A stretch of DNA of 22,765 nt. It comes from a virus. The number at the start of each line of letters is the position of its first letter. Position 1 is the first letter of the stretch. The position numbers and the translations under genes were made by a program. Location: the IMG/VR virus record IMGVR_UViG_3300022602_000452, positions 1 through 22,765 of that record; one strand, given 5' to 3'. A model generated the notes under the pieces. That model ran no database searches and was not told the origin of the DNA. It saw nothing but the letters and a program-made list of their open reading frames with translations. Shown piece by piece: positions 8,256-20,838 of the stretch.

Positions 8256-10583
8256 ATGACTACACCATCAAATTCTGCGGTACAGAATTTACTGCCGGTT
8301 CAGGCTTACTTTAACGTAGATGGAAGTTTTAATACTTTTATCGGGCAAGGTCAGCCTTTTTACGCTACAGCTAACCCTGTTCAATCAGGTTTAACAATTA
8401 CTAACAGTACGTTAGATAGTAGCCCAATAGGTTCAATTACACCTTCTACTGGTGTTTTTACCAATATTGCTACAAATACTGGCACAATTAGCACTAACGC
8501 TACAGGTGCTACGGATATTGTCAACCTTTTGACACTTCAATCGTATGCAGTTGGAATTAGTTGGAAAGCACCTGTTACTGCTGCGACTACTACAAATATT
8601 ACCCTTTCAGGGCTTCAAACAGTCGATACAGTCAGTTTGGTTGCTGGCAACACAGTCTTAGTCAAAAATCAGTCAAACTCTGCTCAAAACGGCATTTATA
8701 CAGTTTCTAGCGGTGCTTGGACTTATGCGACAGGTTGCACAACTTGGTCGCAATATGTAAGTGCTTTAGTTTTCGTAGAATATGGCGGTCAAGCTGGTTC
8801 AGCATGGTATTGCACAGCACAACCAGGTGGAACACTTGGCACGACTGCAATGACTTGGTCTAATTTTAGTACGGCCGCTAACTATACTGCTGGCACAGGG
8901 TTAACCCTTAGTGGCTATCAATTTAGCATTACAAATACTGCTGTTACTGCTGGTTCTTATGGTTCTGCATCATCTGTAGGCACTTTTACAGTTAATGCCC
9001 AAGGTCAATTAACTGCGGCATCATCTACTTCTATTGCTATTGCTGGCAATCAAATTACTTCTGGAACAATTGGTTCTAGCTATATTAGTGGTTCATATAC
9101 TGGTATTACTGGCGTTGGCACTCTTACTGCTGGTACTTGGAACGCATCAACTATTGGTGTTGCTTATGGTGGAACAGGCGTAGCTACATTAACTGGTCTT
9201 GCATATGGCAATGGTACAAGTGCATTTACGGCCGCTACTGGTTCACAAATTGCTTCTGCAATCGGCACAACATTTGTAACCAATGCTACTAATGCTACAA
9301 ATGCAACAACGTCAACTAATTTAGCTGGCGGTGCGGCTGGTTCATTGCCTTATCAATCAGGTAGTGGTGCAACTACATTTTTGGCCGCTGGTTCAAATGG
9401 TCAATATTTAACATTATCTGGCGGTGTTCCAATCTGGGGTTCATTAGGTAGCATTGTTTCTACATTTAGTGCTGGAACAACTGGATTTACGCCTTCTACA
9501 GCTACTTCTGGCGCTATAACACTTGCTGGTACATTAAATATAGCTAACGGTGGAACAGGTATTACTTCTTTTGGTACTGGCGTACAAACCGCATTAGGAC
9601 AAACTGTAACCGGTTCAGGTGGTATTGTTTTAGCAACTAGCCCAACTTTAGTAACACCAGCATTAGGCACCCCATCATCTGCAACCCTTACAAATGCTAC
9701 TGGTTTGCCAGTATCTACAGGTATTAGCGGATTGGGTACGGGTGTTGCTACAGCATTAGCTGTAAACGTAGGTTCTGCTGGTGCTTTTGTAACAAATGGT
9801 GGGGCATTAGGTACACCATCTAGCGGTGTAGCAACCAATTTAACAGGCACAGCATCAGGTCTTTCAATTGGTGGAAATGCGGCAACTGCCACAACAGCAA
9901 CTAACGCTACAAATACAGCTATTACTGACAATACAAGTTCTAGTTCGACCTGGTACCCAACTATTGTTTCAACAACAACTGGAAATTTACCGCAAACTAC
10001 ATCATCTACTAAATTAAGTTTTGTCCCTTCTACTGGCACTTTAAGTGCAACAGCATTTAGCGGATCAGGGTCATCATTAACTGGAATTGTTACTTCTTTA
10101 ACAGGAACAAGTAACCAGATTAGTGTTTCAGCATCTACTGGATCAGTAACTTTATCAACACCACAATCTATTGGAACATCATCTAGCGTTCAATTTGGTT
10201 CTTTTGGGGTGGGAACGGCCGCATCTGGAACAACTGGTGAAATTCGTGCTACAAATAACGTAACCGCTTATTATTCTTCTGACATAAAGTTTAAAGAAAA
10301 TGTCCGTCAAATTGACAATGCAACACAAAAAGCTATTGCCATAGGTGGAAAATACTTTGATTGGACTGCTGAATATATTGCAAATAAAGGTGGCGCAGAC
10401 GGATATTTTGTTCGCAAAAATGATATTGGTGTTATCGCCCAGGATGTCCAAGCAGTTCTTCCTGAAGCAGTTAGAGCAAGAGAAGATGGCACTTTAGCAG
10501 TAGATTATCAAAAACTTGTGTCATTAGCGTTTGCTGCTATTGCTGAATTACAGGCTGAAATTAATAGCTTAAAAGGTAACTAA
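8256..10583 (+). CDS. Tail fibre with C-terminal S74-type intramolecular chaperone
   Basis: This is the probable receptor-contacting fibre. ATG 8256 follows AAGG. The 775-residue product begins with the anchor module shared with the previous gene (about 6-50). A W-K-A-P-V-T-A-A-T-T-T-N-I-T-L-S-G region comes next (about 105-210), with the pattern V-L-V-K-N-Q-S-N-S-A-Q-N-G-I-Y-T-V common in phage fibres. A long Thr/Ser/Gly/Ala-rich shaft with recurring G-G-T-G and G-T-P-S-S elements follows. The end (about 674-773) is a Peptidase_S74 domain: S-S-D-I-K-F-K-E-N-V, G-V-I-A-Q-D-V-Q-A-V-L-P-E-A-V, V-D-Y-Q-K-L-V and a final helix. In characterised members this domain trimerises the fibre and then cuts itself off at the Ser-Asp pair (here S675-D676). 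Two of the window's three GCWGC sites lie in this gene. A 212-aa antisense frame here is a shadow. Confidence 0.9.
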   Translation: MTTPSNSAVQNLLPVQAYFNVDGSFNTFIGQGQPFYATANPVQSGLTITNSTLDSSPIGSITPSTGVFTNIATNTGTISTNATGATDIVNLLTLQSYAVGISWKAPVTAATTTNITLSGLQTVDTVSLVAGNTVLVKNQSNSAQNGIYTVSSGAWTYATGCTTWSQYVSALVFVEYGGQAGSAWYCTAQPGGTLGTTAMTWSNFSTAANYTAGTGLTLSGYQFSITNTAVTAGSYGSASSVGTFTVNAQGQLTAASSTSIAIAGNQITSGTIGSSYISGSYTGITGVGTLTAGTWNASTIGVAYGGTGVATLTGLAYGNGTSAFTAATGSQIASAIGTTFVTNATNATNATTSTNLAGGAAGSLPYQSGSGATTFLAAGSNGQYLTLSGGVPIWGSLGSIVSTFSAGTTGFTPSTATSGAITLAGTLNIANGGTGITSFGTGVQTALGQTVTGSGGIVLATSPTLVTPALGTPSSATLTNATGLPVSTGISGLGTGVATALAVNVGSAGAFVTNGGALGTPSSGVATNLTGTASGLSIGGNAATATTATNATNTAITDNTSSSSTWYPTIVSTTTGNLPQTTSSTKLSFVPSTGTLSATAFSGSGSSLTGIVTSLTGTSNQISVSASTGSVTLSTPQSIGTSSSVQFGSFGVGTAASGTTGEIRATNNVTAYYSSDIKFKENVRQIDNATQKAIAIGGKYFDWTAEYIANKGGADGYFVRKNDIGVIAQDVQAVLPEAVRAREDGTLAVDYQKLVSLAFAAIAELQAEINSLKGN
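8271..8405 (+). repeat. Fibre N-terminal module, copy 2
   Basis: This is the counterpart of the module at 7798-7926, encoding N-S-A-V-Q-N-L-L-P-V-Q-A, then D-G-S and G-Q-G. It is followed by the fibre shaft instead of a short beta domain. Confidence 0.6.
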
Positions 10584-12240: not shown

Positions 12241-13212
12241 ATGGCCCAGCCAATTGACATTATTAGCGGTGCATTAAAAGATATTGGCGCTTTGGCGGCT
12301 GGGGAAACACCAACTGCTGATTCGGTACAAGATGCTTTTACAATGATGAATGGTTTGATTGACCAATGGTCTAACGAATCCATGATGGTTAGTTATAAGA
12401 CTGAAATCATATTTCCTATTACCCCAGGTCAAATTCAATACACAATTGGTCCTGGCGGCACAATTGGTTCAGTATTTACAGGTTCTATATCTGGTAACGT
12501 TTTAACTGTTACTTCTATTCAATCTGGTGCAATTGCCCTTGGTATGACAATAAGTGGAACAGGAATAGCTAATGGCACGACTATTACGGCTTTTGGTACA
12601 GGCGCCGGTGGAAACGTTAATGAAGCTGGCACATATACTGTTAGCATCAGCCAAACGGCTTCTTCAACATCCATTAATGCTTATTATCAGCGTCCTCTTG
12701 CTATTCAGTCTAGCTTTGTGCGAATTAATACTAATAGTAACGGTGTTCCTATTATCAACGGGGGTTTGGACTATCCCGTTGCAGTCCTCAATCTTGAAAA
12801 TTATGAAATGATTGGTTTAAAGACCTTATCAGGTCCTTGGCCAAAAGCAATGTATTACCAGCCTAGCGACCCATTAGGCAACATTTATGTATGGCCAAAT
12901 CCATCACAAGGCGAAATGCACATATTTGCTGATACTTTGTTTACACGTTATCAAACAGTTTATGACCAGATTGTGTTACCACAAGGCTATGAATTAGCCC
13001 TTAGATGGTGTCTTGCGGAACGTTTGCTACCTATGTATGGAAAAGCTGACCAAGTAACTTTAGGAATGATTGCTAAATTTGCCGCTGATTCTAAAGCAAC
13101 TTTAAAGCGTACTAATATGCGCCCAATTCAAGCTTCTACATTTAGTGATGCTTTATTAGTTGGCCGTCAAAAAGATGCTGGATGGATATTAACTGGCGGT
13201 TTTTTAAGATAA
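12241..13212 (+). CDS. P22 gp4-like head-completion / tail accessory factor with inserted domain
   Basis: In P22, gp4 binds under the portal to extend the channel and start tail assembly. ATG 12241 follows GTGGAATA and sits 1 bp after the previous stop. Of the 323 residues, the family-like parts are 1-73 ([39 protein letters not shown]) and 150-323 ([31 protein letters not shown]). Between them, residues 79-148 are a beta module, [13 protein letters not shown] and onward, which also occurs in the downstream gp10-like gene. P22 gp4 is only 166 aa. Removing the module leaves Y-T-I-G-P-G-G joined nearly to R-P-L, as in family members I know. Confidence 0.87.
12475..12684 (+). repeat. Inserted beta module in the gp4-like gene
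   Basis: Residues 79-148 read [13 protein letters not shown], then [15 protein letters not shown], then T-I-T-A-F-G-T-G and a closing [10 protein letters not shown]. The same unit occurs twice in the gp10-like gene. This copy has five extra residues (N-V-N-E-A) just before the closing G-T-Y-T-V strand. Confidence 0.8.
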
Positions 13213-13222
13213 AAGGGGCTAT

Positions 13223-15346
13223 ATGCCGGATTTTGGATTTATTGGCCCATCATACGAAGCCCCGTCCATCTATCAAGATGCACAGGAATGTATTAATTTT
13301 CGTCCTGAAACTGACCCATTAAAACAACCTGGTCAAAATGGCGTTGTAGCTTTATATCCAACGCCAGGATTAACTGTTGTATCACAATTATTTAATCAAG
13401 ATGAAGTACGTGGGATGCGTACTGTTTCGGGCGGTCAATATTGCGTTGCAGTATGTGGTCAATATGTATATGTTTTAACGTCTAATTTAACGCCTACTTT
13501 AGTAGGTACTTTAAATAGTAGTTCTGGTCATGTAGGAATTACAGATAATGGCCAATACGTTTACATTACTGACGGTTCTTATCGTTATGCTTGGCGCATT
13601 TCTAATCCGGCATCAGCCCAATTTATTGGTTCAGTATCAGGGACAACCCTAACTGTTACATTAATGAAATCTGGCACGATTGCCGTAGGACAACAATTAT
13701 TTGGTCTTGGCGTAACACCTGAAACCATTATTACAGGTCTTGGAACAGGTACAGGTGGTGTTGGCACATATACAATTAATTTAAGTCAAACTGAAACATC
13801 AGAAGTATTTAATTCTTCTGCAACTGCCGCTACATTTACTGGTTCGCTTTCTGGTGGAATTTTAACTGTAACTGCCGTGTCTAATGGAACTTTATACCCT
13901 GGACAAACTATTCAAGGTTCTACAGTCAACGCTGGAACCGTTATTACAGCTTATGGTGGCAATACAGTATTAAGCAATAGTATTGTTACTGGTGGTAGCG
14001 GTTATGCAATTAACGATATTGTTACAGCAATTGGTGGAATTTATACTGTTCCGGTTAGTTATACAGTTACCGCTGTTACTGCTGGTGTTGTCACAGGGTT
14101 AACCATAACTACTTCTGGCCAATCTAATTCTTATAGCGTAGAACCTTCCAATCCAGTATCTTTTTCCACAAACGGAAACGGGACGGGTTTAACTTGTAAT
14201 TTAACGTTTGGTACTGGTATTGGCGGAACAGGTAGCTATACAGTTAATGGCACACAAACTGTAACTTCTAGGACAATGTATGCGCTTAACTTTACGGTTT
14301 TGCCATCTTCTGATGGCGCTTTTACTGGTGCGAATGTTGTTGACATTGTTGATAACTATTTTGTTTATAACAGGCCTAATACTCAACAATGGGGTTGTTC
14401 TAACATTCTTTCCCCCATTTCTAATCAATTAAACTTTAGTTCTAAAGATGGTTCGCCTGACAATTTAGTGTCGATTATTGTATCTAACCGTGAAGTATTT
14501 TTAATGGGTGAAACATCATCTGAAGTATGGATTGATGCTGGTCTGTTTCCATTTCCATTCCAAAGGATTCCAGGAACTAATACCCAACATGGTATTGCCG
14601 CCCCATTTAGTACGGCCAGAATTGGTAATTCATTTGCCTATGTAAGCCGAAATATTCGTGGCCAAGCACAAATTATGATGATGAACGGCTATATTCCAAC
14701 ACGAATTTCTACCCATGCTGTAGAAAATACACTTTTGGACCAATATATTGAAGATGCAATTGCTTACACTTATCAATTAGAAGGTCATGAAGTTTATGTA
14801 GTTACATTCCCAACAATTGATTTAACTTGGGCATATGACATTTCTACAGGAATGTGGCACAAATGGCTTTCTGTTGACAATCAAAACGTTTTTCATAGAC
14901 ACCGTTCTAATTGCCAAGCTAACTTCCAAAACATGAATTTGGTAGGTGATTACCAAAATGGTTTAATTTATATGCTTGACCAAGCTAATTACACCGATAA
15001 TGGCAATGAAATCCGCAGAGTTCGCAGATGCCCACATTTGGTTAGCGATTACCAACGGGAATATTTTCACGAATTACAGATTTATTTCCAGCCAGGCGTA
15101 GGACTTTCTAATGGCCTTGCGGCTAATGAAGTGCCACAGGCTATGTTGCGTTGGTCAGATGATGGCGGTTCTACTTGGTCTAATGAACATTGGACTTCTA
15201 TTGGCGTTCAAGGCGCTTATAAAAACCGTGCTATTTGGCGTAGATTAGGCTTTGCACGGGATAGAGTATTTGAAATAGTTGTTACTGACCCAGTAAAAGC
15301 GGTTATTATTGCGGCAAATCTTAAAGCAGATGCGGGGTCTAACTAA
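13223..15346 (+). CDS. P22 gp10-like packaged-DNA stabilisation / tail hub protein with inserted modules
   Basis: In P22, gp10 forms the hub below gp4 that holds the tailspikes and needle. ATG 13223 follows AAAAGGGG. The 707-residue product (P22 gp10 has 472) has recognisable family ends: 1-133 (F-G-F-I-G-P-S-Y, Q-E-C-I-N-F-R-P-E, Y-P-T-P-G-L, a beta-propeller-like V-G-I-T-D-N-G-Q-Y-V-Y-I-T-D-G) and about 357-707 (D-N-Y-F-V-Y-N-R-P-N-T-Q-Q-W, S-S-E-V-W-I-D-A-G, G-I-A-A-P-F-S, W-A-Y-D-I-S-T-G-M-W-H-K-W). Between them lie two copies of the beta module found in the gp4-like gene (134-198 and 205-351). The second copy is itself split by a further module (246-329). The stop overlaps the next ATG as TAATG. 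Confidence 0.87.
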   Translation: MPDFGFIGPSYEAPSIYQDAQECINFRPETDPLKQPGQNGVVALYPTPGLTVVSQLFNQDEVRGMRTVSGGQYCVAVCGQYVYVLTSNLTPTLVGTLNSSSGHVGITDNGQYVYITDGSYRYAWRISNPASAQFIGSVSGTTLTVTLMKSGTIAVGQQLFGLGVTPETIITGLGTGTGGVGTYTINLSQTETSEVFNSSATAATFTGSLSGGILTVTAVSNGTLYPGQTIQGSTVNAGTVITAYGGNTVLSNSIVTGGSGYAINDIVTAIGGIYTVPVSYTVTAVTAGVVTGLTITTSGQSNSYSVEPSNPVSFSTNGNGTGLTCNLTFGTGIGGTGSYTVNGTQTVTSRTMYALNFTVLPSSDGAFTGANVVDIVDNYFVYNRPNTQQWGCSNILSPISNQLNFSSKDGSPDNLVSIIVSNREVFLMGETSSEVWIDAGLFPFPFQRIPGTNTQHGIAAPFSTARIGNSFAYVSRNIRGQAQIMMMNGYIPTRISTHAVENTLLDQYIEDAIAYTYQLEGHEVYVVTFPTIDLTWAYDISTGMWHKWLSVDNQNVFHRHRSNCQANFQNMNLVGDYQNGLIYMLDQANYTDNGNEIRRVRRCPHLVSDYQREYFHELQIYFQPGVGLSNGLAANEVPQAMLRWSDDGGSTWSNEHWTSIGVQGAYKNRAIWRRLGFARDRVFEIVVTDPVKAVIIAANLKADAGSN
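13622..13816 (+). repeat. Inserted beta module, first copy in the gp10-like gene
   Basis: Residues 134-198: F-I-G-S-V-S-G-T-T-L-T-V-T, S-G-T-I-A-V-G-Q-Q-L, T-I-I-T-G-L-G-T-G-T-G-G-V-G-T-Y-T-I-N-L-S-Q-T. It is alignable without gaps over most of its length with the next copy and, with a 5-residue indel, with the gp4-like copy. Confidence 0.8.
13835..14278 (+). repeat. Inserted beta module, second copy, interrupted
   Basis: The first part (residues 205-244) reads F-T-G-S-L-S-G-G-I-L-T-V-T, G-T-L-Y-P-G-Q-T-I, G-T-V-I-T-A-Y-G. The second part resumes at about residue 330 with G-T-G-I-G-G-T-G-S-Y-T-V-N-G-T-Q-T-V. Joined, the two give one ordinary unit, so the sequence between them is an insertion. 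Confidence 0.75.
13958..14209 (+). repeat. Nested module inside the second beta repeat
   Basis: Residues 246-329 carry V-T-G-G-S-G-Y-A-I-N-D-I-V, V-T-A-V-T-A-G-V-V-T-G-L-T-I-T-T-S-G and G-T-G-L-T-C-N-L-T-F. This 'G-G-S-G-Y-x-x-x-D-x-V ... G-x-V-x-x-x-x-I' pattern is one I know from phage and bacterial surface proteins as a free-standing repeat. Here it sits in the loop between T-A-Y-G and T-G-I-G-G of the outer module. Confidence 0.75.
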
Positions 15347-15594
15347 TGGCTAATAGTCAAAATAATGGCGTTTGGACCAATACCCAAAGTAATCCCTATC
15401 CCCAGTCGCCCTTTTTGGATGAACAAACCAAGCGCCCAACACGTGCTTGGCAACAGTATTTATTGAATTTACTAAACTTTTCTTCAGCTACCAATGCCAC
15501 AAAAGGCACCGGTACGTTACCTACTAATCCGGCTGGATTTATTAATATTACTGTTAATGGCCAACCAATGAAAGTGCCATATTACAACCCATGA
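15346..15594 (+). CDS. Hypothetical protein, 82 aa, tail-region accessory
   Basis: The start ATG shares a base with the gp10-like stop (TAATG), so translation is coupled. The 82-residue product begins M-A-N-S-Q-N-N-G-V-W-T-N-T-Q and has a Pro/Gln-rich N-terminus with a helical R-A-W-Q-Q-Y-L-L-N-L-L-N-F (about 36-48). It ends with a beta-like I-N-I-T-V-N-G-Q-P-M-K-V-P-Y-Y. No known motif is visible. It lies between the tail hub gene and the SET-domain fusion, overlapping the latter by ATGA. A small structural protein of the tail is the simplest guess. Confidence 0.65.
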   Translation: MANSQNNGVWTNTQSNPYPQSPFLDEQTKRPTRAWQQYLLNLLNFSSATNATKGTGTLPTNPAGFINITVNGQPMKVPYYNP

Positions 15595-16436
15595 ATCTTG
15601 TTTACGTTAAACCTTCTATTCCAGTTAAACAGCAAATAGAAAATTTGCAAACTGAACTATTAAAAATGCCACAAGCTGACATAGTGACAGAACACGTTTT
15701 TTATCCAGGTTTTTATGAACGAAAAATTACCATTCCAGCTTGGACAGTATTAACTGGCGCCGCCCACAAAACTGATTACAAAATTCGTTTAGAAAAAGGA
15801 ACAATTGCTGTAAATGTAGGCGAAAAAGTAACCATAATGACCGCCCCTTATGAATTTGAAGCAAAAGCTGGTGAACAACGTGTTGGACGTGTTTTTGAAG
15901 AAGAAGTGGTTTGGGTGGACGTTTATGCCAATCCAGATGATTGCCAAGATTTAACTGTATTAGAAGAACGTCTTTATGTTGTGCCAAACTGCGGTTTAGG
16001 CGAAAATAGAGTTGCTTTGCAAATTAATAATGCAAAAGCAGATTACAAGCTTTTTTTAGATCAAATAGGTTTAAATGAAGTGGAAATTGATAAAATAGTA
16101 ACAAATGAAGCGGATGTAATAGATATGCCTAATGGATATTTTGTGAAACTTAAAGAATCAAAAATCCATGGAAAAGGCTTATTTGCTACAAAAAACTTTA
16201 AATTAGGGGAAATTGTTTGCCCCGGCCGATTGGCTGGTAAACGAACCCCTGGCGGTAGATTTATAAATCATTCGTATGACAGTAACATTATGCCAATAAA
16301 AGTTGGTGATGATATTTACGCAATGGCCAGTCGTGATATTTACGAAAATGAGGAATTGTTAGTAGATTACAGGTCATCAATGAGGGTTAATTTTGGTATT
16401 ACATTACAAGGGGAAATGCCATGTCAGGTTGGGTAG
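15591..16436 (+). CDS. SET-domain protein with N-terminal cupin-like beta domain
   Basis: SET domains transfer methyl groups from S-adenosylmethionine to protein lysines. Of 281 residues, about 180-265 form a compact SET domain: S-K-I-H-G-K-G-L-F-A-T-K-N-F-K-L-G-E-I-V (190-209, opening motif), G-R-F-I-N-H-S-Y-D-S-N (222-232, the cofactor-binding N-H-S) and A-S-R-D-I-Y-E-N-E-E-L-L-V-D-Y (246-260, with the conserved Tyr). Only about a dozen residues separate the first two motifs, so the usual SET insert is nearly absent. No post-SET cysteines follow. Residues 35-130 look like a double-stranded beta-helix (K-I-T-I-P-A-W-T-V-L-T-G-A-A-H-K, G-T-I-A-V-N-V-G-E-K-V). The start (ATGA overlap) and end (16-base overlap with the next gene) place it firmly in the virion operon. 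The substrate is unknown. Methyltransferase activity is inferred from motifs; a structural use of a SET fold cannot be excluded. Confidence 0.85.
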   Translation: MNLVYVKPSIPVKQQIENLQTELLKMPQADIVTEHVFYPGFYERKITIPAWTVLTGAAHKTDYKIRLEKGTIAVNVGEKVTIMTAPYEFEAKAGEQRVGRVFEEEVVWVDVYANPDDCQDLTVLEERLYVVPNCGLGENRVALQINNAKADYKLFLDQIGLNEVEIDKIVTNEADVIDMPNGYFVKLKESKIHGKGLFATKNFKLGEIVCPGRLAGKRTPGGRFINHSYDSNIMPIKVGDDIYAMASRDIYENEELLVDYRSSMRVNFGITLQGEMPCQVG

Positions 16437-17347
16437 CCGGTGCAGTAGTAGTTGGGTCAGTAGCTTCAGGCTATTTGCAATCCCAAGCCACGCAAAATGC
16501 GGCGCAACAATACGCTAATGCCGCAAATCAAGGTATTCAGTATAGCCAAGGTATGTTTAATACCATTAATAACGAAACTTTGCCTTACCAAAACACAGGT
16601 TTGCAAGCAAATAACGCTATTAATTCTATGTTGCCCGGCACTTATACCAATGCTCAAGGCGGAACTTCTACTGGTTCTGGGTATTTAACTGCCAATCCAA
16701 CCATGAATGATTTGACACAATTGATGCCAAATTATCAATTTGGATTAACACAAGGTATGGGTCAAGTTAATGCTGGCATTAATGCTGGCGGTGGGTATTT
16801 AAGCGGTAATGAAATTCAAGGCGCTAATACTTTTGCCCAAAACTATGCTGGAAATGCTTTGCAAAACGCTTTTACTAATTATCAAACCAATCGCCAAAAC
16901 GTTGCTACCAATCTTTATAACGCTTCTAATATTGGCACTACTGGCGTACAAACTGCGGCTAACGCTGGTTCTGGAACTGCTTCTAACGTTTCAAATATGC
17001 TTTCAAGCATTGGTAATGCCCAAGCTTCTGCAACAATGGGCCAAGCTAATTCTATTGCTGGTGGATTAAATAATATTAGTAATTACGCTATGCTTTATGG
17101 AATGACACAACCAGGTGGTTTAAGTGGTTCTGATATTCGTATGAAAGAAAATATTGAAACGGTTGGCTGGTTACCAAATGGTTTGCCAGTTTACACTTGG
17201 GAATATAAACCAGAATTTAAAAATGACGATAATTGCGGTCACGGCAAATTTATTGGTGTTATGGCTCACGAAGTTGAAAAAATTATTCCTGAAGCCGTTA
17301 TTACACGTCCTGACGGATTTAAAACGGTTGATTACTCTAAAGTTTAG
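16421..17347 (+). CDS. Putative ejection protein with C-terminal S74-type chaperone domain
   Basis: ATG 16421 has AAGGGGAAA upstream and overlaps the SET gene by 16 bases. The 308-residue product starts with a hydrophobic Gly/Ala/Val helix (M-S-G-W-V-A-G-A-V-V-V-G-S-V-A-S-G-Y-L). A long Asn/Gln/Ala/Gly-rich helical body follows (to about 230), typical of internal virion proteins ejected with DNA (compare the position of P22 gp7). Residues 236-308 are S74-like: G-S-D-I-R-M-K-E-N-I, F-I-G-V-M-A-H-E-V-E-K-I-I-P-E-A-V, D-G-F-K-T-V-D-Y-S-K-V. The Ser-Asp cleavage pair is present (S237-D238), but the protein stops right after V-D-Y-S-K-V. It therefore lacks the closing coiled-coil helices seen in the tail fibre's S74 domain. 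The ejection role is inferred from order and composition. Confidence 0.75.
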   Translation: MSGWVAGAVVVGSVASGYLQSQATQNAAQQYANAANQGIQYSQGMFNTINNETLPYQNTGLQANNAINSMLPGTYTNAQGGTSTGSGYLTANPTMNDLTQLMPNYQFGLTQGMGQVNAGINAGGGYLSGNEIQGANTFAQNYAGNALQNAFTNYQTNRQNVATNLYNASNIGTTGVQTAANAGSGTASNVSNMLSSIGNAQASATMGQANSIAGGLNNISNYAMLYGMTQPGGLSGSDIRMKENIETVGWLPNGLPVYTWEYKPEFKNDDNCGHGKFIGVMAHEVEKIIPEAVITRPDGFKTVDYSKV

Positions 17348-17356
17348 GAAATAGTT

Positions 17357-18820
17357 ATGGCTGAATTTACTGCGGACTTAAATCCAAAACAAAACACCAT
17401 GTCCCTTGGTGATATGATGAAAATGGGGCTTTATGGTGCCGAAACTCAAATTGCCCAACGTGAAGCCCAAATGGCAACACAAAAAGCAAAAGAAATGCCT
17501 ATTATTCAAAATTGGGCTAAAGACCCATCTAATAAGCTTGAAGATGGTTCTTTTGATTTGCATCAAATTCCAGCATTAATTTCAATTGCCCCAATGTCAG
17601 GTCCTGAATATGCTGACAAAATTATTAGCCTTACAAAAAATCATATTGAAACCAATAAAGCATTAAATGAACTTTCTGAACAAAACAGAAAACCAATTGC
17701 TTCAGTATATGGTTCTTATGGTCAGTTGGCCGCAAATGGACAAAAAATTACTCCAACAGATATTGTTAATTCTTTAGAAACATTAAAACAATATTATCCA
17801 CAAAATGCAAAAGCTATTGATGGACAAATTAAAGGCTGGTCAGCTTATCCTAAAGACCATCCTGTTGACCCACAAGCATTATTACGTGCTAGAAATGAAT
17901 CTTTAACGCCAACCCAATTAATTGACCAGTTTTCACCTAAAGTTGGTATGTCTAAAATTGGTGGCGCAGACGTTCCAGTTGTTACTACACCTTCTGTTTC
18001 TGGCGAAACACCAAGTATTAAAACTACTCAATTTAGTAGCGGTACAGGTGGATATATTGCTGGCGGTACTACCGGTGCTACAGCATCTAAACCAACAACT
18101 GAAGAAGCTGGCAAACGTTTACCAGCTATTGTTAACTATGGCGCTGGACTTAAATATACTCAAGACCCCGCATTATTTAATCTTAATGATGCTCAGAAAA
18201 AAGTTTATGACAAAGGCGATGAAATGGTTAATTCTATTGGTGCTGGTCTTAAAGCGGCCAAAGATATTCAACAACCAATTCGCAAGGTTGAAGAATACAT
18301 TAATAGCGCAAGTGGTTCTAAGCTTTATCAAACCCTACAAGCTGGCGGTAAATACGCATGGGGCAATTCTGATTTAGATTCATTAGTCAAAAACGTTGCT
18401 TCAATTCAAGCTAGAAATGCTGAAGTTATGGGATTGTCAAAAACTGACCATATGCAAGATTTGAACGCTAAATTAAGTGGTAGTGAAAAAATTGACCCCA
18501 AAGCATTGGCTGGTGTTATGCAACAAGTTAAAGCTGATGCCGTGGCCGCTGAAAAATATAACAACGGATTGCAAAAATTTGTTGAAAAGCATGGCGATAT
18601 TAATGGCCGTATTTTGGCTAATAAATTTCAACAAGCTTGGGCAGATAATTATGACACACGTATCTTCCAACAACAAAACATTGAAAATTCTAATTTGCCA
18701 GAAATTGACAAACAAAGACGTATTGCTGAAATTCATTCCACAATGTCTAAAGATGAATACAAAGAACTTGAAAATAAAGCTAAGATTCTTTACCGTTTAG
18801 AAAAAGGTCTATATCAATAA
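17357..18820 (+). CDS. Putative ejection/internal virion protein, 487 aa
   Basis: ATG 17357 follows TAGGAAATAG. The 487-residue product has no signal peptide or membrane segment and looks mostly alpha-helical. Early parts are Gln/Ala/Lys-rich (residues 25-50), a Gly/Thr/Ser-rich flexible linker lies around 205-245, and the C-terminal half is helical and charged (K-K-V-Y-D-K-G-D-E-M-V-N, E-I-D-K-Q-R-R-I-A-E-I-H). I recognise no domain. It is flanked by the S74-ended protein and the M15-headed protein, the same layout as the gp7-gp20-gp16 ejection block of P22. Its helical nature fits a DNA-delivery channel component. The next ATG overlaps its stop (TAATG). Confidence 0.65.
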   Translation: MAEFTADLNPKQNTMSLGDMMKMGLYGAETQIAQREAQMATQKAKEMPIIQNWAKDPSNKLEDGSFDLHQIPALISIAPMSGPEYADKIISLTKNHIETNKALNELSEQNRKPIASVYGSYGQLAANGQKITPTDIVNSLETLKQYYPQNAKAIDGQIKGWSAYPKDHPVDPQALLRARNESLTPTQLIDQFSPKVGMSKIGGADVPVVTTPSVSGETPSIKTTQFSSGTGGYIAGGTTGATASKPTTEEAGKRLPAIVNYGAGLKYTQDPALFNLNDAQKKVYDKGDEMVNSIGAGLKAAKDIQQPIRKVEEYINSASGSKLYQTLQAGGKYAWGNSDLDSLVKNVASIQARNAEVMGLSKTDHMQDLNAKLSGSEKIDPKALAGVMQQVKADAVAAEKYNNGLQKFVEKHGDINGRILANKFQQAWADNYDTRIFQQQNIENSNLPEIDKQRRIAEIHSTMSKDEYKELENKAKILYRLEKGLYQ

Positions 18821-20838
18821 TGGCTGACCCAACATTAGATGATGACATTCCTGGGTTTAAAACACCCTATTCTGGTACTGATAGAGTTGGTGTAACAGTT
18901 GCCCCAGCACCGGCTTCTTTTGCCAATGCAAAAGCTTTGCCAACACCGGCACCTGATGTTGCTGACTTACAACCTGACCTTAAAGAACGTATTGATGCAC
19001 TACGGGATTTGTGGAAAAACAATAAAGAACTTAACCCTAAGGGCGAAGATTTGCCTATCATTAGCGGTTATAGAACTAAAGAACAGCAACGTCAGCTTTA
19101 TTTAGACCGTCTTAAAAATCCTAATTTAGTAGCTGAACCTGGAAAAAGCCGTCATGAAAAGGGTGATGCAATTGACATTCACCCACGGGTCCCAGATTCA
19201 TTATTAACACAAGTAGGTTTGCACCGTCCTTATGGCGTTAAAGACCCAGTTCATGTTCAAATTAATCCAGATTTGCCATATGAACCAACCCCATATGATG
19301 TAGAAGCTGATACGGATGTGCCTGGCTTTAAATCTACATACAATCCTAAAGGTCCTACAGCCGCACAAGAAATGGGTGCAATGTATGAAGAAGCCAAAAA
19401 AGCCCCTGGCAACCTAGCTAAAACATTTGCTTCTGCCGCTGATACAGCACTAAATACTATTCCAGCTACAGCCCAATTTGTTGCAGAACCAGTAGCTAAA
19501 TTAATTGACCGTATTGGTGACACTAAAGTTGCAGAAGAAGCATTGCAAAAGGCAACTAGCTACTTCCAAAGTCCATTTGGTAAAACATTTGGTCTTACAA
19601 AAGACCCAGTTTATAACGCTGAAGCAACCCATCAAATTATGGATTACGTTGGTGAACACGCTGACCGTGGCGCCCAATGGATTGCTGATAACACCGGTAT
19701 GGATAAGTCAGATGCCGCATGGTTTCTAAATGCCGCCGCACTTAAAGCCGCACCATATGTAGCCCGTGGCACTAAAGCTACTGCCGCTAAGGTTGGTGAA
19801 GTTGCAACTGCTGAAAATGCTGGCAATTTACTTTCTGAAATAAGTGGCAAATTAACTGCCGCAAGCCCATATAACACTAAACGTGCATATGCCGCTGGAT
19901 TTGAAAAGAACCCAGCAATTTTAGAATATTCAAAAGAAGGTGCAGTTTCAGCACCAGAAGTTGTTGGAAATGTAAGACAAGCTTTACAAAACGTTAAAGA
20001 AAGCAGAAAACAAGCTTATCAACAAGGAATTGCTACTACCAAAAATAATCAAGTGTTTTTGGACTTTAAACCTATTCGTGAAGCTTTTGATGCAACTGTT
20101 GAATCACTTAAATCTAAAGGTGTTGGCGGTGTAGAAGCTTCTAAAGTTGGTCCAGAAACTATGTCCAAGGTTAAAGAAATAGAAGATATTTTGAATGAAT
20201 GGGAAAACAAACCTGAACTTCATACTGCCGGCGGTTTGGATGACCTTAAACAGCGTATTGATGATGTTTATTCACAAGGAATGACTGAAAATGCAAAACG
20301 TGTAATGACTACTACACGTAATGCCGTAAAAGACACCATTGTTAAGCAAGATAAAAATTATGAAAAAACAATGGCTGATTATGAAAAAGGCCTTGAACTC
20401 GAACGTGAAATTGAAAAAGCTTTAAGCCTTGGAAATAAAACTGGTGTTGATACTACCATTCGCAAGCTTGCCCAAGTATTTTCTAATAAAAGCACATTAA
20501 GCAAACAATATCGTTTAGAACTATTGCAAGAACTTGAAAAGGTTGGCGGAAAAGACGTTATTGATAAATTGGTTGGTTATGCTATGGGTCAATCCACGCC
20601 TGGCGGATTGCAATTGCTTGGTGATTTGGTTGTAGGTGCTGGCGCACATATGTTAAGCCCTGAAGCTGGCGTTACAACATTAGGTGCATTAGCGGCCGCC
20701 CAAAGTCCTAAAGCGGCTTTATATGGTGCCTATGGTGCTGGACGTACTGCACGTGCAATTAGCGATATTGGGGCTAATGTAAAATCCCAAGTAGCTAAAG
20801 GTAAAACAAAATTAAGTGAATTAACTTCTAGGAAATAA
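18820..20838 (+). CDS. Large internal/ejection protein with N-terminal M15 peptidase domain
   Basis: This is probably a virion-borne peptidoglycan peptidase fused to an ejection protein. Of 672 residues, about 50-150 match the M15 (VanY/endolysin-type) fold: I-I-S-G-Y-R-T-K-E-Q-Q-R-Q-L-Y (80-94), S-R-H-E-K-G-D-A-I-D-I-H (110-121, zinc ligands H112 and D119) and D-P-V-H-V-Q-I (142-148, third ligand H145). The zinc set appears complete. The motif D-[IV]-P-G-F-K-[TS]-x-Y occurs on both sides of this domain (9-17 and 166-174). The rest is long and helical (e.g. E-Y-S-K-E-G, coiled stretches at about 390-560), with a Gly/Ala-rich hydrophobic stretch near 590-650 and a basic end. Translation starts at a TAATG overlap. 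Local wall cleavage during DNA entry is the likely role (inference). Confidence 0.83.
   Translation: MADPTLDDDIPGFKTPYSGTDRVGVTVAPAPASFANAKALPTPAPDVADLQPDLKERIDALRDLWKNNKELNPKGEDLPIISGYRTKEQQRQLYLDRLKNPNLVAEPGKSRHEKGDAIDIHPRVPDSLLTQVGLHRPYGVKDPVHVQINPDLPYEPTPYDVEADTDVPGFKSTYNPKGPTAAQEMGAMYEEAKKAPGNLAKTFASAADTALNTIPATAQFVAEPVAKLIDRIGDTKVAEEALQKATSYFQSPFGKTFGLTKDPVYNAEATHQIMDYVGEHADRGAQWIADNTGMDKSDAAWFLNAAALKAAPYVARGTKATAAKVGEVATAENAGNLLSEISGKLTAASPYNTKRAYAAGFEKNPAILEYSKEGAVSAPEVVGNVRQALQNVKESRKQAYQQGIATTKNNQVFLDFKPIREAFDATVESLKSKGVGGVEASKVGPETMSKVKEIEDILNEWENKPELHTAGGLDDLKQRIDDVYSQGMTENAKRVMTTTRNAVKDTIVKQDKNYEKTMADYEKGLELEREIEKALSLGNKTGVDTTIRKLAQVFSNKSTLSKQYRLELLQELEKVGGKDVIDKLVGYAMGQSTPGGLQLLGDLVVGAGAHMLSPEAGVTTLGALAAAQSPKAALYGAYGAGRTARAISDIGANVKSQVAKGKTKLSELTSRK
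18844..18870 (+). repeat. DxPGFK flank motif, copy 1
   Basis: This encodes D-I-P-G-F-K-T-P-Y just before the M15 domain. The matching copy lies just after the domain at 19315-19341. Confidence 0.6.
19315..19341 (+). repeat. DxPGFK flank motif, copy 2
   Basis: This encodes D-V-P-G-F-K-S-T-Y immediately after the M15 domain and before the helical body. Confidence 0.6.

Follow-up and report, generated by a model that had tools for sequence, protein, structure and literature searches.

A cupin protein of the tail region in P22-like phages carries an optional C-terminal SET domain without the SET-I insert

The virus record analysed here, IMGVR_UViG_3300022602_000452, which we refer to as the window, comprises 22,765 bases. 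Its gene order, as derived from family matches and partly assigned by position, is that of a P22-like podovirus, with genes for terminase, portal, coat protein, tail adaptor and Hc3 followed by a small gene, the cupin-SET gene, the DNA-ejection gene, internal virion proteins and the tail collar fibre (Table 1). A 4-base overlap (ATGA at 15591) joins the cupin-SET gene to the gene before it, and one of 16 bases (ATG at 16421) joins it to the ejection gene, whose start region falls within the final codons of the cupin-SET gene. An open reading frame interlocked with both neighbours inside the virion operon had been proposed in the original prediction, and this arrangement was confirmed, the gene being located between the head-closure and ejection genes. 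The small upstream gene had no family match at E<0.05.

Table 1. Coordinates of the cupin-SET gene, its parts and its neighbours in the window.
Feature	Position	Strand	Evidence
Cupin-SET fusion gene, 281 aa, ATG start	15591..16436	+	ORF; PHROG 34170 over residues 13-270, E=3.7e-37; AlphaFold2 mean pLDDT 86.7
N-terminal cupin domain, residues ~13-130, PHROG 12032/24280 tail family	15627..15980	+	PHROG 12032 E=1.8e-18; Foldseek to TM1459, Sthe2323
Helical linker, residues 139-180, travels with SET; D151, D175, P180 invariant in A3	16005..16130	+	Helices 139-159, 163-170 (AlphaFold2); found in SET-only L150, L156, L159
SET domain core, residues 184-264, without SET-I insert; G194, G196, N226, H227, E255, Y260 invariant	16140..16382	+	Pfam, AlphaFold2, Foldseek, conservation
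Indel cassette, missing from SET-less relative L038	16066..16400	+	blastn blocks and protein alignment
Small upstream gene, 82 aa	15346..15594	+	ORF; ATGA overlap with cupin-SET gene
Head-closure Hc3 / P22 gp10-like gene	13223..15346	+	PHROG 578 E=4e-100
DNA-ejection protein gene	16421..17347	+	PHROG 598 E=5.3e-17; PHROG 4287 E=1.5e-9

The C-terminal part of the protein contains the motifs HGKGLFA (193-199), RFINHS..SN (223-232) and EELLVDY (254-260), so that motif I (GxG), motif III (NH) and motif IV (E..Y) of the SET superfamily are all present, and Pfam PF00856 matched residues 221-260 (E=2e-9; 38.2 bits against a cut-off of 22.4) as well as all 52 aligned relatives. The family profile matched MLL1 (E=9.5e-13) in two blocks, motif I and motifs III/IV, between which MLL1 has about 35 extra residues at the position of SET-I in the profile alignment. 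In line with these results, AlphaFold2 modelled the linker-SET module with a pLDDT of 88.6 and a pTM of 0.80 (94-98 in the SET core, pLDDT), and when the module was compared with the PDB by Foldseek, all 50 among the matches listed were SET proteins or SET-bearing complexes (best E=1.2e-7), including MLL1, SET8, PBCV-1 vSET and COMPASS. The profile, family and structure results together rule out a chance match or a misread SET motif, and the intact motifs and SET fold that had been anticipated for this protein were thus both recovered. The whole protein was modelled with a pTM of 0.53, by which the relative placement of the cupin and SET domains is not fixed.

The SET domain is strongly reduced. 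As the original prediction had noted, there is almost no insert between the first two motifs, and the motif I to motif III span measured 24 residues in each of the 67 diverse members, none of which contains the SET-I insert that forms a wall of the substrate groove in canonical SET lysine methyltransferases. This uniformity indicates that lack of SET-I characterises the family as a fixed trait and does not reflect local decay. SET-I and a cysteine-rich post-SET region normally build the substrate groove of SET enzymes, and since both are missing from the phage domain, an unusual substrate, or binding without methylation, is possible.

The N-terminal half was recognizable as the beta-rich, cupin-like domain that had been predicted. 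Foldseek aligned it with the cupins TM1459 and Sthe2323 (target-normalised TM ~0.6-0.67, E ~1e-6 to 1e-5), and matches to PHROGs 12032 and 24280 link it to an annotated tail family; the overlapping ejection gene downstream agrees with the setting of PHROG 12032, and in the annotated P22-like relatives inspected the cupin likewise lies immediately 5' of an ejection-type gene. The conserved HxH of the HxH...E...H metal ligands was absent from the 21-row cupin alignment, as read from the alignment, and the domain does not classify as a metal-dependent cupin enzyme. Because of this family annotation and genomic position, we infer that the cupin protein is associated with the virion. In Bordetella phage BPP-1 (L006, 7531-8450) the GNAT acetyltransferase gene bbp24, another possible lysine-modifying enzyme, overlaps the cupin gene bbp23. 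A modifying enzyme is not a general neighbour of the cupin, as this gene and one acetylesterase in DSL-LC05 were the only cases.

The cupin-SET fusion was found in one frame on at least 177 different viral contigs (185 loci, from which eight fetched twice were removed), a lower bound since the count comes from three scans of which the SET scan covered the best 80 of 501 relatives. Five deposited phages carry it (zth2-2, ctfPj964, ct1fd225, PH1 and P26218; three further records are duplicates), and the family is carried by many freshwater phages. In the clade of the window, 29 loci of one scan possessed the SET domain and 27 lacked it, and in the P26218-like clade it was present in all 78 complete loci. 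A tree of the cupin columns, which rests on few columns and a rough bootstrap, could be reconciled with the SET label only by 11 changes, of which well-supported branches force at least 8. The SET domain is an accessory module that has been repeatedly gained and lost among close relatives.

Individual pairs of genomes illustrate these events. When the SET-less relative L038 was compared with the window by blastn, the matching blocks stopped at 16065 and resumed at 16401, both at base 6478 of L038, and the protein alignment showed that the intervening part is missing and the tail peptide GE..CQ.G retained. This C-terminal tail may have been kept despite the loss of SET because the final codons of the cupin-SET gene also hold the start of the ejection gene. 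Likewise, between L037 and L053 a stretch of 476 bases is replaced by 136 bases, with flanks that are 90% and 96% identical. Gene families exclusive to SET-negative relatives were also considered and were mainly those of one subclade (L054-L067), whose virion genes have diverged as a whole; in this subclade the cupin is kept, the neighbours differ and another gene occupies the ejection position.

In a prophage of Paraburkholderia ferrariae (L150), cupin (PHROG 12032, E=5.3e-37) and SET are encoded by adjoining genes with an ATGA overlap, and the fusion of the two in most genomes together with their adjacency in this one supports a functional link between them. In a Comamonadaceae element (L156), a SET gene without cupin directly precedes a putative ejection gene, so assigned by position and look, with an internal virion/transglycosylase gene further on, and an unrelated phage contig of 369 kb (L069) encodes a free SET protein of 126 aa, with virion genes on one side and the tail sheath on the other. 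SET without cupin was seen in L156, where an integrase gene and an ejection-type gene are also present, and in an element of a Rhodocyclales MAG (L159). In neither was a capsid or terminase gene evident on visual inspection of the available stretch, and both may be satellites or remnants. When close relatives were scanned with the SET domain of L156, no matches were obtained. The SET domain of L252 lies outside virion genes and has no RTxxGR motif.

Among 67 diverse members, S190, G194, G196, T219, G222, N226, H227 and E255 were invariant, Y260, the catalytic tyrosine, was present in all 66 that are complete, and R218, R223 and N232 had at most two exceptions each. These conserved positions are the established cofactor-binding and catalytic sites of SET enzymes. 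Median dN/dS values were 0.12 for SET, 0.26 for the linker and 0.077 for the cupin, estimated under substantial saturation (median dS ~1), and the SET domain is under purifying selection. Since this chemistry is invariant and under purifying selection although the module itself is dispensable, we infer that the SET domain is catalytically active. Where SET and cupin are encoded separately, the linker helices with D151, D175 and P180 still go with SET, which suggests that they are probably part of the enzyme, and they may take the place of SET-I.

Proteins of the same full-length architecture beside an ejection gene, with 28-33% identity to that of the window, are found in PHROG 34170, Rhodoferax phage P26218 (gp30), Pseudoalteromonas phage PH1 (gp49) and ct1fd225 (UOF81456.1). 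No function has been described for these proteins, whose annotation is hypothetical protein or, in the case of one record, refers to a histone methyltransferase structure. The homologous cupins of PHROGs 12032 and 24280 (short tail fibre and tail fibre adhesin) and PHA00672 (BPP-1 Bbp23, VPMS1, BA3 and Shewanella X14) are also usually encoded just 5' of a DNA-ejection gene, but they end shortly past the cupin and carry no SET domain. The best sequence and structure matches to the phage SET domain were those of MLL1/KMT2A and SET8/KMT5A, which are histone enzymes of eukaryotes and, in contrast, possess a SET-I region. A small viral counterpart is vSET of chlorovirus PBCV-1, an H3K27 methyltransferase (PDB 3kma/1n3j; Foldseek target-normalised TM 0.62, profile E=6.7e-8); however, vSET is a stand-alone protein of 119 aa, whereas the phage SET core has about 80 aa and is fused to a cupin. 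Bacterial secreted SET effectors such as RomA, NUE and BtSET are SET methyltransferases that work in a foreign cell, on eukaryotic chromatin (PMC3980110); phages are not mentioned in that review. PADLOC returned no defence-system matches and NCBIfam no matches. The original prediction that no characterised system has this form stands in so far as literature searches, mostly outside subscription journals, found neither phage SET proteins nor Bbp23 described. The protein is not a one-off, as the contigs and deposited phages counted above show, and the databases already contain cupin-SET sequences as PHROG 34170, as a BFVD entry 'SET domain containing protein' and as a GenBank record that takes its name from the PBCV-1 histone methyltransferase structure and is labelled as a SET-type methyltransferase.

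On balance, we consider it probable that a tail cupin of P22-like podoviruses with an optional SET module acts as a late, virion-docked lysine methyltransferase that uses S-adenosylmethionine. A conserved small cupin protein of the tail region would bear the helical linker and the SET-I-less SET domain as a C-terminal module and would be made late, together with the virion genes; its cupin half would attach it to the tail or the ejection apparatus, placing the enzyme on or near the virion, where the SET domain would methylate lysines. A host protein at entry or in late infection appears slightly likelier as the target than the phage's own tail or ejection proteins. This slight lean derives from a search of 13 co-located protein families, in which no lysine column tracked the presence of SET, a weak test limited to about 6 kb with the coat protein mostly out of range, and a fixed virion target within this distance is thus unsupported. 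A more far-reaching form of this reading, to which we give tentative weight, would see a new SET-I-less subfamily of virion-tethered lysine methyltransferases, swappable on the tail cupin, that are delivered with the genome and methylate host proteins at entry.

The location in the virion operon, the overlap with the ejection gene, the tail-family assignment of the cupin and the free SET within the tail operon of the unrelated large phage would equally suit an enzyme that methylates tail, ejection or coat lysines during assembly, tuning stability or resistance to proteolysis, and has no host targets. We regard such self-modification as rather unlikely, however, because SET is dispensed with in close relatives whose flanking DNA is 90-96% identical, and the neighbouring proteins yielded no SET-tracking lysine column in the weak test above. 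Repeated gain and loss is presumably typical of accessory genes for host interaction and might also point to a late enzyme that acts on host proteins in the cytoplasm of the infected cell without being packaged, the cupin serving only for oligomerisation or as a scaffold; this is unlikely, since the cupin family is grouped among tail proteins and its genes adjoin those for tail and ejection proteins. A structural reuse of the fold, which the original prediction had also raised, would make the SET domain an adhesin or stabiliser without catalytic function, mounted on the tail cupin, consistent with the absence from all members of SET-I, an element of the substrate groove, and with the annotation of the cupin family as tail fibre or adhesin. 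Nevertheless, cofactor and catalytic residues are all invariant across very divergent members, although the module is dispensable between close relatives, and cupin-free SET modules keep the same residues, which makes such a reuse improbable.

SET enzymes are mainly regarded as writers of eukaryotic chromatin and as bacterial effectors against eukaryotes. The gain and loss of an apparently intact SET domain described here hint at methylation by these phages of lysines in their own particles or in host proteins, and a widespread SET family in phage virion operons would, if active, bring protein-lysine methylation into phage assembly or entry. The combination of a reduced fold with invariant chemistry would represent a minimal SET scaffold in which substrate is necessarily bound without SET-I. 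Its function is directly testable in close relatives with and without SET.

Further domains were noted in other genes of the window. The same beta domain, SG..LTVT...GTYTV..SQT, is inserted in the tail adaptor (12241-13212, residues ~77-147) and in Hc3 (residues ~126-197 and a further stretch); it has matches in PHROGs 21413/38233 as well and is a mobile domain in two adjoining tail genes. A peptidase-S74-like chaperone segment (DIRMKENIE.. / DIKFKENVR..) forms the C-terminal end of both the ejection protein and a tail fibre (8256-10583); such an end is unusual for an ejection protein, yet PHROG 4287 has it elsewhere. The large internal virion protein (18820-20838) possesses an N-terminal endolysin-like peptidoglycan-hydrolase domain (PHROG 465, E=4.9e-7).
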